In this document: piece after piece, positions 15,328 through 20,248 of the stretch
Numbering within the stretch: position 1 is the first letter of the stretch
How the letters are laid out: each line of letters starts with the position of its first letter
Origin: Candidatus Bipolaricaulota bacterium
GTDB taxonomy: Bacteria; Bipolaricaulota; Bipolaricaulia; RBG-16-55-9
Direction of reading: 5' to 3'
NCBI GenBank assembly: GCA_026982655.1
Contig: JALSGO010000108.1
Location: forward strand, 1 to 55,515
Length of the DNA: 55,515 nucleotides
The notes under the pieces: model-generated
The model's input: only the letters and a program-made list of their open reading frames with translations
Told to the model about the DNA's origin: nothing
Database searches by the model: none
Position numbers and translations under genes: made by a program

Positions 15328-16248
15328 TCAAGTCGTCGGTTCGGTCTCCTCCCGGACGGCCTCCTCTTCGGGGCGGGCGAACCGGGTGGCCAAAAGGCCT
15401 ATACCGTATAATAGCACAATGGCGCTGGCCATCGCCACTTGCGTGAAGATGTCGGGCGGGGTGAACATCGCCCCCACCAGAAAGGCCCCTAAGACCACGA
15501 AGCGCCACTGACGCACCAGGGTTTGGCGCTGGACGAGACCGAGTTTGACAAGGAGATACATGGCCAGGGGCATCTCGAAGCTGAGCCCGAAGACCAACAT
15601 GAAGAGCATCGTGAAGGAGACGTAGTTCCCCACGGAGAAGAGGGGGCTCAACAGAGGGCCGCCGATGCCGATGAGGAACTGCATCGCTAAGGGCAGAACG
15701 ACCCAGAAGCAGAAGACGACCCCGGTATAGAAGAGCCCGCTCCCGAAGACGAAGAAGTTGACGAGGTATTTGCGCTCATGGCGATAGAGCGCGGGCATCA
15801 CAAACCGCCACAGCTGCAGGAGAACCCAGGGCATCCCCGCCAACAGCCCCGTCAGGAGCGAGAGCTTGATGTACGTGAAGAAGGCTTCCACGGGGTGGGT
15901 GAAGATCAAGCCGCCGACGAGGAGCTGGGCGGCCCGGCGGGCCACCCGCTCGGAGATCCCTTCGGCCTGCAGGTGGGCGATCAAGCGCTCGTAGTCCTCC
16001 GAGGGGCCGAAGGTGCCCTGCAGGGGACGGATCAGAAACTCCAACAGAAAATCCTTGAAGACGTACGCCACCACGGCAAGGAGGAAGACGACGAGGATGG
16101 CACGGATGAGCCGCATCCGTAACTCATCGAGATGCTCCGTGAGGCTCATCTTATACGCCTCAACCTCGTCTTCCGGTTCGGTAGGCCCTGTGGGTTCCGT
16201 CTGCCCTGCCGATACCGAGGCTTGGGCTGTCTCCTCCGTCGGGCTCAT
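15328..16248 (-). CDS. tatC: Sec-independent protein translocase TatC
   Basis: The 306-residue polytopic membrane protein is the receptor of the twin-arginine pathway, recognising RR signal peptides. The hallmark SLTEHLDELRMRLIRA before the first helix is present, followed by six membrane helices. The family residues in GMPWVLLQLWRFVMPALYRHERKY and FGLSFEMPLAMYLLVKLG (with the membrane Glu) are kept. The ATG at 16248 follows GAGAGGAGAG; the longer frame to 16314 lacks a site. An N-terminal extension of about 30 acidic residues before SLTEHLDEL is unusual. tatA is about 29 kb away at 45083 and no tatB is seen. The gene just upstream encodes a subtilase with a Tat/lipoprotein-like segment. Confidence 0.96.
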   Translation of the reverse strand: MSPTEETAQASVSAGQTEPTGPTEPEDEVEAYKMSLTEHLDELRMRLIRAILVVFLLAVVAYVFKDFLLEFLIRPLQGTFGPSEDYERLIAHLQAEGISERVARRAAQLLVGGLIFTHPVEAFFTYIKLSLLTGLLAGMPWVLLQLWRFVMPALYRHERKYLVNFFVFGSGLFYTGVVFCFWVVLPLAMQFLIGIGGPLLSPLFSVGNYVSFTMLFMLVFGLSFEMPLAMYLLVKLGLVQRQTLVRQWRFVVLGAFLVGAMFTPPDIFTQVAMASAIVLLYGIGLLATRFARPEEEAVREETEPTT

Positions 16249-16347
16249 TGAGCTCTCTCCTCTCTCCCTCGGTTGTTCTCGAGCGACGCATCGCGTGATC
16301 GAGCCGGGAGGCACCGAACGCCCCCGTTAGTACCCCATTAGGGGACA

Positions 16348-17826
16348 CTACGGCCCAAGGACGGCGCGGGCGGCGTCCACGAGCCCGCGGCCCTGGGCCT
16401 GGACGAAGAGCCCCAGGTCCTGAGCCGTCTCCTCCAGTCGTCGGCGGACGGCTCCCGCGTCCCGCAGCCCGGCGGCCATCACGAGCGCCGCCACGCCCGC
16501 CACCTGGGGCACGGAGAACGACGTCCCGCTCACCCGCTGGTATTCCCCGTCCCGAGCGGTAGTGAGGAGATTGGTCCCCGGCGCGACGAGGTCGACCTCG
16601 GGGCCCATGTTGCTGAACCAAGCCCGTTGGTCGTTCTCGTCCGTGGAGGCCACCGCGATCACCTCGGGGTACGCCGCCGGGTACAAGACGCGATACCCCT
16701 TGTTCCCCGCCGCGGCGACCAGCAGCACGCCCGCTTGATGGACTGCGCGGATCGCGTCCCGCAGGGCGGCGTTGTCCTCCTCGGTGCCCAGGCTCATCCC
16801 GATGATCTGCACGCCCTGCCGCAGGGCCCACTCCAGCCCGCGGATGAGGTCGCTGATCGAGCCCCGCTCGTCGTAGCTCAAGATCTTCACCGACCAGATC
16901 TTCACCCGGGGGGCCGTGCCCACTAAGCCGAGGCCGTTCTCGGCGGCGGCCAGCAGCCCCGCCACCCCCGTCCCGTGGCCGTTGTCGTCCGAGGGATCGT
17001 TGTCGCCGTTGACGAAGTCGATGCCCCCCAGAACGTTGCTCCTAAGATCCGGATGGGCAAGGTCGACGCCCGTGTCCAGAAGGGCGACGGTGACCCCCTC
17101 GCCGAGCACGCCCGGATGGGGCAGCACCCACGCCGCCGTACATCCCGAGAGCGCCGCGAGCGTCCCCACCAGCAGCCCGCCCACGACGAGGCGGGATCGG
17201 CGGCGCAGCGGGCTCATCCGAAGCCCCAGCGCCCCCAGTGCCCAGAGAACCCCCAGGGCGCCGAGCGCCAGAGCTCTGCCGGATCCCGTATCGGATGCCC
17301 CGGGGACCGCTGCGAGTCGGGTGCGGTGGACCTCCGGGGCGCGGATGCGCTCGACCCCCCAGCTGTAGAGCTCCACGGGGATCGCGGAGCCCGTCACGCT
17401 CCGGGGGGCAAGCGACGGCTCCCCGGACCCCTGCTCCGGACCCGGAGCAGGAGCGAGGCGGGCCCAGAACTCGGGCGTCCCCACCACGCCGTCGGGGACG
17501 ACGTAGCGCACCCGGGGATCGCCCTCCAGCTCCTCTCTCAGCTCCGCGTCGAGGGTGGCCACGACGGCGTCGATCAGCTCCAAGCGCTCCTCGACCCGCC
17601 CTCCCCCGCTCTCGATGCGGACCTCGAGGGCGCGCACCAGGCCCTGAGTGGATACCCCTACCCCCTGAGCCTCAGCGCGCAGCCCGATGATCACCCTCTG
17701 CTTTGGATCTGGGGTTCGGGCTTGGGCTTGCGCTTGAGCATCCCAAGCGCCGAGCGCCAGCGCAACAAGCCCTACCAAGGCGATCCCGACGATGCCCGGA
17801 AGCCGGATGCCAAAACCGTTCCTCAT
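16348..17826 (-). CDS. subtilisin-like serine protease (S8) with an internal lipoprotein/Tat-like signal segment
   Basis: The 492-residue exported protease has a signal peptide (about 10-33) and an I9-like propeptide region (about 44-112). The peptidase domain carries Asp251 in ALLDTGVDLAHPDL, His284 in DNGHGTGVAG, oxyanion Asn375 in AAAGN and Ser436 in SGTSFSVPQVAG. The triad is complete. Oddly, the domain is interrupted between the first helix (SWGVERIRAPEV, 155-166) and the first strand by about 75 residues. These carry two hydrophobic stretches (184-202 and 212-228). The second starts MSPLRRRSRLVVGGLLVG and ends in the lipobox-like LSGC (Cys229). An internal start at Met204 (17217) would give a lipoprotein, but no Shine-Dalgarno precedes it. 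The gene starts 25 bases behind mutS2. Confidence 0.92.
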   Translation of the reverse strand: MRNGFGIRLPGIVGIALVGLVALALGAWDAQAQAQARTPDPKQRVIIGLRAEAQGVGVSTQGLVRALEVRIESGGGRVEERLELIDAVVATLDAELREELEGDPRVRYVVPDGVVGTPEFWARLAPAPGPEQGSGEPSLAPRSVTGSAIPVELYSWGVERIRAPEVHRTRLAAVPGASDTGSGRALALGALGVLWALGALGLRMSPLRRRSRLVVGGLLVGTLAALSGCTAAWVLPHPGVLGEGVTVALLDTGVDLAHPDLRSNVLGGIDFVNGDNDPSDDNGHGTGVAGLLAAAENGLGLVGTAPRVKIWSVKILSYDERGSISDLIRGLEWALRQGVQIIGMSLGTEEDNAALRDAIRAVHQAGVLLVAAAGNKGYRVLYPAAYPEVIAVASTDENDQRAWFSNMGPEVDLVAPGTNLLTTARDGEYQRVSGTSFSVPQVAGVAALVMAAGLRDAGAVRRRLEETAQDLGLFVQAQGRGLVDAARAVLGP

Positions 17827-17851: not shown

Positions 17852-20248
17852 TTATTTCAACTCCACGACGGTGACCCCGTCTCCCCCCTGATAGGCGGGC
17901 GCGGGGTAGATGCGGGCCACCCGGGGGTCCTTGGCGAGGCGATCCCGGATCGCCTGGCGCAGCGTCCCCGTCCCCTTGCCGTGGACGATGTAGGCCTTGC
18001 GGATGTCGTGGAGCGTCAGTCGGTCGAGGTAAAGGTCGACCTCTCTCAGGGCCTCGCTCGTGGTCATCCCGCGGACGTGCAGCTCCAGGCCGGGGCTCTC
18101 CGGGGAGAGCTCGTGCGGCGGCGGCGTAGCCCTTCGCGTGGGCTCTTGGGCTTTCGGCTTGGCCCGCGCGGCTTGGGGGGGCGGGGGCGTTCGAAGGTCC
18201 TCCCGCTTGGCCCGGATCTTGACGCTCCCGATCTCGATCTCCACCCGCTCCCCTTCGGCGTCGAGCACCTCCCGGATCACCCCGGTCTGGCCCAGCGGGA
18301 TCACGTAGACGGCCCGACCGGGGACCACCTCCTCCGGGGCCAAGGGGCGCGAAGGCTCTTCCACCGCGCGCTCCGCCGCGCGCAGCCCCTGCTCCTGGGC
18401 GCGGAGCTCGTGAAGCTGCCGTCGCAGTTCCTCCTCCCGCGCCCCCCGGCGGGCGCGGTGGAGCGCCTCCTCCAGTCGGCGACGGGTTTCCCTCAGCTGC
18501 TTCTCCAGCTCCCGGATCTCGGCCCGCAGCGCGCTCGTCGTCTGCTGCTCGATCTGCTCGAGCTTCCGGCGGAAGCGCTCCCGCTCGGCACGGGCCGCCT
18601 CCCGCTCTTGTTGGAGTCGAAGCCGCTCGCGGGAGAGGGCGAGTCGCTCCTGCTGAAGCTGCTGGAGGATCTCCTCGAGGTCGAGCGCGCCCTCGGAGAG
18701 GAAACTCTGCGCGTCGCGGACGATCTCCTCCCGCAATCCCAGCCGCCGGGCGATGATGAACGCGTTACTCGCCCCCACGCCCTCCACCAGGCGATAGGTC
18801 GGGCGCAGCGTCTCGACGTCGAACTCCACGGAGCACGTCTTGAGGCGCTCGTGCTGGTACGCGAAGTGTTTTAAGGGGCTGAAGTGCGTCGTGACGACGA
18901 CGCGCGCGCCCGTGGCCAAGAAGGAGCGCAACAGGGCGATCCCCAGCGCGGCCCCCTCCTGGGGGTCCGTCCCGGCCCCCAGCTCGTCCACCAGCACCAG
19001 GGAGCGCTCGTTCAGCTCCTCCAAGATGCCCACCAGGTTGCGCATGTGGGAGCTGAAGGTACTGAGATTCTGCTCGATGGACTGCTCGTCGCCGATGTCG
19101 CTGCGCACCACGTCGAAGACGGCCAGCTCCGTTTCGGGCTCGGCGGGGACGGGGATCCCCGACTGGGCCATCAGGGTCAGGAGTCCCACGGTCTTGAGGG
19201 TGACGGTCTTGCCTCCCGTGTTCGGGCCGGTGATGACCACCCCCTGATGGCAGCCCCCGAACTCGAGGTCGATGGGCACCACGCTTTTCGGGTCCAAGAG
19301 GGGATGGCGGGCCCCCTTCAAGCGGATCCGGCCTTGGGCGTTGAGTTGGGGGATCACGCATCGGCACTCGAGGGCCCAGCGGGCGCGGGCGTACAGGCCG
19401 TCCAAGATCCGGAGGGCCTTGAGCGTCTCCCGGATCCCGCGGGCCTCGCGGCGCAGCCTCCCCGTTAAATCTCTCAGGATGCGCAGCTTCTCGTCCCGGA
19501 TCTCGCTTTCGAGCTCGCGGACCTCGTTGTTGAGTTCGACCACGGCGCGAGGCTCCACGTAGAGGGTCTGCCCGGAGTCGGAGCTGTCGTGGACCACACA
19601 ATCGAGATCGCGCTTGTGGCCGCTCTTGATGGGGATCACCAAGCGCCCGGAGCGGCGGGTGATCAGGGGCTCCCGAATCAAGGCGGCGTTCTCCGGGGCG
19701 TACAGAAACTCTTTCAGAAGGGCCTCGACTTGCTCTTCGAGAGCGAGCTTGCGCTCGGAGAGGGCGCGCAGGCGGGGGGAGGCGTCGGGGCGCACTTCCC
19801 CGTCTTCGTCGAACGTCCGCCGGATGGCCCCCTCCAGCTCGCGGAAGACCCCGACCCGCTCCGCCAGGCGTCGGAGTTCGGGGTAGTCGCCCTCCAAATC
19901 GAGGAGGGCCTGCCGGAGGCGGCGGGCGCTCTCCAGCGTCTTGAGCACCCCCAAGAACTCCTCGCCCCCCAGCGCGGTGGTCTCGTGGGCCTGCTGCAAG
20001 AGGGGCTCCAGGTCGTCCATGGGTCCGGGGGCGAGGGCGGGACCGGCCTCCTCCAGCGCGCGGCGCATCTCCTCCACGCGGGTCAGCTCCCTCCGGATCT
20101 TCTCTACGTCTGCGGTGGGGAAGAGGGCCGCGACGGCCTCCCGGCCCAGGGACGAGGCAGCATAGCCTTGAATGCAGGCTTGGACCCGCTCCAGCTCCAG
20201 GTCCCGCAGGGTCTTCTCGTTCGCCACCGGGGCTGTGATCACGGTCAT
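17852..20248 (-). CDS. mutS2: endonuclease MutS2
   Basis: The 798-residue MutS-like ATPase with a C-terminal Smr nuclease domain acts on recombination intermediates and, in some bacteria, on collided ribosomes. The core and clamp regions are followed by the ATPase with Walker A GPNTGGKT, STFSSHM, Walker B VLVDELGAGTDP and TTHFSPLK. A long coiled coil (about 510-630) and the Smr domain with LELHVRGMTTSEAL and YIVHGKGTGTLRQAI near the end complete it. The mismatch-recognition domain I of MutS is absent, as expected. The ATG at 20248 has no Shine-Dalgarno, and a good promoter ends 15 bases upstream. It is the first gene of the nine-gene run ending at folD. Confidence 0.96.
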   Translation of the reverse strand: MTVITAPVANEKTLRDLELERVQACIQGYAASSLGREAVAALFPTADVEKIRRELTRVEEMRRALEEAGPALAPGPMDDLEPLLQQAHETTALGGEEFLGVLKTLESARRLRQALLDLEGDYPELRRLAERVGVFRELEGAIRRTFDEDGEVRPDASPRLRALSERKLALEEQVEALLKEFLYAPENAALIREPLITRRSGRLVIPIKSGHKRDLDCVVHDSSDSGQTLYVEPRAVVELNNEVRELESEIRDEKLRILRDLTGRLRREARGIRETLKALRILDGLYARARWALECRCVIPQLNAQGRIRLKGARHPLLDPKSVVPIDLEFGGCHQGVVITGPNTGGKTVTLKTVGLLTLMAQSGIPVPAEPETELAVFDVVRSDIGDEQSIEQNLSTFSSHMRNLVGILEELNERSLVLVDELGAGTDPQEGAALGIALLRSFLATGARVVVTTHFSPLKHFAYQHERLKTCSVEFDVETLRPTYRLVEGVGASNAFIIARRLGLREEIVRDAQSFLSEGALDLEEILQQLQQERLALSRERLRLQQEREAARAERERFRRKLEQIEQQTTSALRAEIRELEKQLRETRRRLEEALHRARRGAREEELRRQLHELRAQEQGLRAAERAVEEPSRPLAPEEVVPGRAVYVIPLGQTGVIREVLDAEGERVEIEIGSVKIRAKREDLRTPPPPQAARAKPKAQEPTRRATPPPHELSPESPGLELHVRGMTTSEALREVDLYLDRLTLHDIRKAYIVHGKGTGTLRQAIRDRLAKDPRVARIYPAPAYQGGDGVTVVELK

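Follow-up and report, generated by a model that had tools for sequence, protein, structure and literature searches.

A putative internal lipoprotein signal within the catalytic domain of a Bipolaricaulota subtilase

We found that an S8 subtilase encoded in a Bipolaricaulota metagenome assembly is interrupted within its catalytic domain by an insert of about 70 residues, laid out as a membrane hairpin that ends in a lipobox. This insert is probably an internal lipoprotein signal, one that anchors, and probably splits, the secreted protease. The gene (16348–17826, reverse strand; called from the ORF list, a Pfam match and alignment) encodes 492 residues and lies in the window, the whole 55,515-nucleotide stretch of DNA that was analysed; L031/G001, a relative of the same genus, carries the label Candidatus Bipolaricaulota. 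From its N terminus, the protein comprises an ordinary signal peptide, an I9-like propeptide, the first S8 helix, the insert and the catalytic remainder.

PF00082 (S8) was the sole Pfam domain above cut-off in the window protein (residues 242–471, E = 2.8e-53), and its score of 181.6 bits against a cut-off of 21.8 places the protein within the S8 profile. The complete catalytic triad described in an earlier, sequence-only reading held up: Asp251, His284 and Ser436 are invariant in an alignment of all eight orthologues, as is Asn375. The product is, by sequence, an S8 protease with an intact triad and predicted activity. The predicted Sec-type signal peptide (residues ~1–34, 17725–17826; helix 9–36 in the AF2 model) ends in DAQAQA and has no lipobox; Cys229, which lies in the insert, is the only cysteine of the 492-residue chain, and hence the signal peptide contains none. 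An I9-like propeptide was assigned to residues 43–116 (17479–17700) from PF05922 matches in 7/8 orthologues (best E = 2e-6), the window protein itself being sub-threshold at 0.066, and from superposition of the AF2 model on unprocessed pro-subtilisin E (PDB 3whi). The latter is the closest solved structure and shares the fold, the triad and the I9-like propeptide (TM-score 0.92 by target length). The first helix region of the S8 domain, placed by alignment, spans residues 152–167, 'ELYSWGVERIRAPEVH' (17326–17373; AF2 helices 156–160 and 164–167), and lies upstream of the insert; we take its helix 'YSWGVERIRAPEVH' to be equivalent to 'VPYGVSQIKAPALH' of subtilisin BPN'. The remainder of the catalytic domain, with the entire triad, occupies residues 238–492 (16351–17115), as judged from Pfam, alignment, AF2 and the structure match.

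Alignment with S8 homologues placed the insert (residues 168–237, 17116–17325) between the first helix and the first strand of the domain, as the earlier reading had proposed, although at about 70 residues (53–73 across the family) it is somewhat shorter than the 75 then estimated. Insert-less S8 relatives have about 5–20 residues between the motifs 'WGVxxIxAxxVH' and 'GxGVxVAxxDTG', where the window protein has ~70. The two hydrophobic stretches that had been noted were both recovered by Kyte–Doolittle hydropathy over 17-residue runs, with means of 2.09 for the TM1 17-mer and 1.62 for the TM2 17-mer, the latter ending in LSGC with Cys229. TM1 covers residues 183–202 (17221–17280) and, we infer, runs from outside to inside; it is followed by a basic loop, RMSPLRRRSR (residues 203–212, 17191–17220), which the composition of the orthologous loops would place on the cytoplasmic side. 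TM2 (residues 213–228, 17143–17190) resembles a lipoprotein signal and would run from inside to outside, ending at the lipobox L226-S227-G228-C229 (17140–17151), which precedes a short linker. As read before, Met204 opens the stretch MSPLRRRSRL leading into TM2. Structure prediction gave helices at 183–202 and 209–227 with moderate confidence, disorder at 228–235 and a confident S8 core, from an alignment of 20 rows that held just two insert-bearing sequences.

A whole-genome search yielded orthologues in G000–G006 and G009, a small set drawn from metagenome assemblies, in which L004 is incomplete at its N terminus. All eight, from eight species in three families (f1, f2 and f3), carry an insert of 53–73 residues at the identical site. 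No part of the protein varies more than the insert: pairwise identity there is mostly 14–46%, as against 54–77% for most catalytic-domain pairs, and its dN/dS of about 0.32 compares with 0.11 for the catalytic domain. Although it otherwise varies freely, every orthologue retains a 17-residue hydrophobic run, a loop of 4–13 residues with one to five Lys or Arg and no Asp or Glu, a second hydrophobic run and L-x-G-C. Only 3 of its 46 ungapped columns are invariant, namely lipobox −3 Leu (L226), −1 Gly (G228) and +1 Cys (C229), and none of the 34 ungapped columns over residues 168–225 is; three columns placed at random would coincide with lipobox positions −3, −1 and +1 with a probability of about 7e-5. 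These are the positions that define a lipobox (PMC8048626). The −2 residue varies among orthologues (S, G, L, P or F). Each of the eight host genomes has both lgt and lspA, and ordinary N-terminal lipoproteins of the phylum also use L-x-G-C (LAGC, LGGC, LTGC, LFGC). The full grammar of a lipoprotein signal described from the window alone is thus borne out across the family: LSGC fits the pattern [LVI][ASTVI][GAS]C after a hydrophobic segment and a basic n-region, and L-x-G-C recurs in 8/8. Cys229 nevertheless lies behind a signal peptide, a propeptide and TM1 and not near the N terminus; we therefore class the protein as lipoprotein-like rather than as an ordinary lipoprotein. A disulfide role for Cys229 was considered and rejected: it is the sole cysteine in 6/8 orthologues, so that no partner is available for an intrachain bond in these proteins.

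In a tree of the catalytic domain, the insert-bearing proteins formed one group (SH-aLRT 100%) whose branching matches the host families, a pattern that by sequence reflects one gain of the insert followed by vertical descent. The insert was absent from every other S8 protein retrieved from the rest of the phylum and from about 50 other genomes. In ~800 sampled genomes of Chloroflexota (the phylum of L050) and Bacillota (the phylum of L061), the matches listed begin at profile position 190 or later (at least 190), so none of these spans the insert. L067, taken up as a candidate insert-spanning match, was rejected, its sequence having no insert. A scan of all ORFs of the loci first examined found a TM hairpin with a lipobox inside a clearly exported protein in the insert subtilases only; we put the few other internal motif matches down to non-coding frames, a wrongly placed start and polytopic membrane proteins.

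Under the model that we favour, the N-terminal signal peptide would export the I9-like propeptide and the first protease helix, TM1 would halt export and return the chain to the cytoplasm, the basic loop would remain on the cytoplasmic side, and TM2 would lead the chain outward again, so that L-x-G-C comes to lie on the outer side of the membrane. With propeptide and first helix already exported under the first signal peptide, a lipobox further along the chain requires a return helix such as TM1 before a lipoprotein-type signal can lead outward. Lgt would then add diacylglycerol to Cys229, the predicted modification site, and LspA would probably cut before it, following the lipobox rule and the order of Lgt then LspA set out in PMC8048626 and PMC6952399. 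The catalytic chain 229–492 would thereby be lipid-anchored by its own N terminus, and the propeptide, first helix and hairpin would become a separate chain. The likely purpose lies in the position of the lipid: a subtilase lipidated at the very start of its chain would be set free once the propeptide is autocatalytically removed, but with the lipid behind the propeptide the mature enzyme would stay on the membrane. The earlier suggestion that the S8 domain is threaded through the membrane is supported by the hairpin grammar of all eight orthologues, from which the topology is deduced.

Several points weigh against a lipoprotein signal: the signals on which Lgt and LspA are known to act are N-terminal, a cut before Cys229 would detach the first helix, which is normally part of the subtilisin fold, the −2 Pro of L006 falls, by its sequence, outside the usual lipobox set, and the AF2 confidence of the insert helices is only moderate. 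The hairpin might instead be left uncut, serving as a two-helix tether only, with Cys229 unlipidated, or lipidated without cleavage, and the chain whole. TM1 by itself would hold the N-terminal part, and the first helix would be retained in the fold of an uncut chain. Moreover, our literature search returned no paper on LspA cutting a signal behind another transmembrane helix, and nothing relevant on internal lipoboxes or internal LspA processing. A bare tether, however, leaves unexplained why Leu −3, Gly −1 and Cys +1 alone are invariant in the insert, and why hairpins ending in a lipobox occur in unrelated proteins (see below); we consider an uncut hairpin unlikely, though the most credible alternative to an internal lipoprotein signal.

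The remaining explanations are far less probable. The earlier reading had raised the idea of two products from one gene, a full-length secreted form and a lipoprotein begun at the ATG of Met204 (17215–17217), which in the window immediately precedes RRRSR, TM2 and LSGC and has a G-rich stretch just upstream. Comparison of start codons argues strongly against it. Met204 is not conserved, and three orthologues offer no normal start codon from which TM2 and the whole of its basic loop could be made as a signal: the sole candidate in L008 is a TTG where TM1 ends, and those of L004 and L007 all fall within TM2. A form started at Met204 would also be without propeptide and first helix, and TM1, needed only by the full-length form, is retained in 8/8; we regard internal initiation as very improbable. 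Still less probable is Tat-dependent export with the adjacent TatC serving the subtilase, which the triple arginine before TM2 and the neighbouring gene had brought to mind. tatC is indeed the next gene downstream on the same strand (15328–16314; identified by Pfam and locus comparison), but the loops of L003 (RKNSQK) and L005 (SNHNPLALSQSR) have no twin arginines, the first signal peptide carries no twin-arginine motif, and the loop shows no more than a basic character and a lack of acidic residues. The link to tatC fails likewise, as its adjacency is confined to family f1, where the order is mutS2–S8–tatC–efp; mutS2 (17852–20248, reverse strand; from the ORF list and locus comparison) is the upstream neighbour in the window and was, like tatC, judged to lie outside the system. 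In family f2 the order is M20-type peptidase–S8–tig–clpP, and in family f3 the S8 gene adjoins priA and pcm (neighbour names read from translations). As the neighbours differ between families, we view tatC as a local neighbour and not a partner. In the f2 loci L122 (3537–5042) and L123 (5961–7544), trigger factor and clpP follow immediately downstream of the insert subtilase gene. An assembly error or a decaying gene is the least credible explanation of all: the sources are draft metagenome assemblies, but the orthologues refute it, the same insert occurring in eight species from separate assemblies, with an open frame, an intact triad and dN/dS below 1 throughout.

Among S8 proteins (PF00082), we retrieved none outside this clade with a membrane hairpin between the first helix and first strand. 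Within the phylum, the nearest relatives that lack the insert, L095–L097, are likewise exported subtilases with a predicted lipidated-cysteine anchor, but their lipobox (LTGC, TFGC or LFGC) belongs to the signal peptide at the N terminus and precedes the propeptide, whereas that of the insert clade is internal, after the propeptide and first helix; in L095–L097, propeptide loss would release the enzyme. NalP of Neisseria carries its lipid anchor at the N terminus. It resembles the proposed form of the window protein as an exported subtilase held by a lipidated cysteine, and differs in its N-terminal rather than internal lipobox; NalP is a subtilisin-like autotransporter (PMC5472700). By sequence, the best named S8 subfamily is that of the mycosins, MycP (TIGR03921, E about 1e-59), although the score of 200.4 bits is below the equivalog cut-off of 278.75. 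Mycosins carry a C-terminal membrane helix, which is absent from the window subtilase.

The earlier view that the arrangement is new to the family holds for S8 proteins outside the clade, but similar hairpins do occur in other protein families, and one kind has a name in NCBIfam. A scan of that collection returned NF058595, invert_tail, a 'lipo-invert putative C-terminal anchoring domain' that likewise has a TM segment, a basic loop, a second TM segment and a lipobox Cys within an exported beta domain; it differs in its hosts, which are C-terminal Ig/Fn3-like domains and not an enzyme. The insert subtilases reach 9.9–13.4 bits at best against a curated cut-off of 37, and membership was rejected. 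In L004, L006 and L007 the lipobox Cys does align with profile position 72, an agreement that is not a formal criterion, and at loose E-values the profile is unspecific, with weak matches in all control genomes. In Nitrospirota, the cut-off is passed by L148–L152 and narrowly missed by L144, L153 and L155, with L146 and L147 scoring more weakly; the hairpins of these proteins, set within C-terminal Ig- or Fn3-like domains, mostly have RRR or RRK in the loop and end in lipoboxes such as LLSC, TAGC, LISC and LVSC.

Following weak NF058595 matches within the order of the subtilase hosts led to three further proteins. At L125:759–1262 (G002), a Flg_new_2 (InlB-like) repeat is broken by a TM-RRRRGRK-TM hairpin ending in LTAC. 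L186:1245–2609 (minus strand, G002) and L187:780–2138 (plus strand, G006) encode exported proteins of the same order of parts, dockerin type I, a hairpin ending in LTSC or LTAC, and a cohesin-like domain; Pfam matched the dockerin, and 'cohesin-like' is our own reading. Like the subtilase, these three place a TM segment, a basic loop, a TM segment and a lipobox, in their case LT[SA]C, between two exported parts, but their hosts are unrelated to it, the hairpin parting a dockerin from a cohesin-like domain or breaking a repeat. If processed, L186 and L187 would each give a dockerin half and a cohesin-like half bearing the lipid, and the two might bind each other. Separately, the DUF4129 membrane protein at L126:964–1842 (minus strand, G097) has a TM-SREARR-TM stretch ending in FLGC some 110 residues into the chain, and may be a polytopic protein with an internal lipobox. 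No paper on hairpins of the lipo-invert type was found in the literature search. Judged by their sequences, internal lipobox hairpins recur across unrelated exported proteins and are of a kind already named in NCBIfam, and that of the subtilase is distinct in lying within the catalytic domain of an enzyme, between the propeptide and the triad, a placement that none of the others shares.

Both the definition and the prediction of lipoprotein signals treat them as features of the N terminus. We consider it an evenly balanced proposition that internal lipoboxes carried on hairpins serve some bacteria as a general means of using Lgt and LspA to split an exported protein mid-chain and lipid-anchor its downstream half, in the subtilase keeping the mature enzyme anchored after propeptide removal, and in the dockerin proteins separating a dockerin half from a cohesin-like half that is lipidated and could bind it again. 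If so, Lgt and LspA would recognise signals within a chain and serve in the maturation of split proteins, and prediction tools restricted to N termini would miss lipoboxes lying mid-chain. The subtilase would be an unusual case even among these, as its proposed cut would fall inside the catalytic domain.
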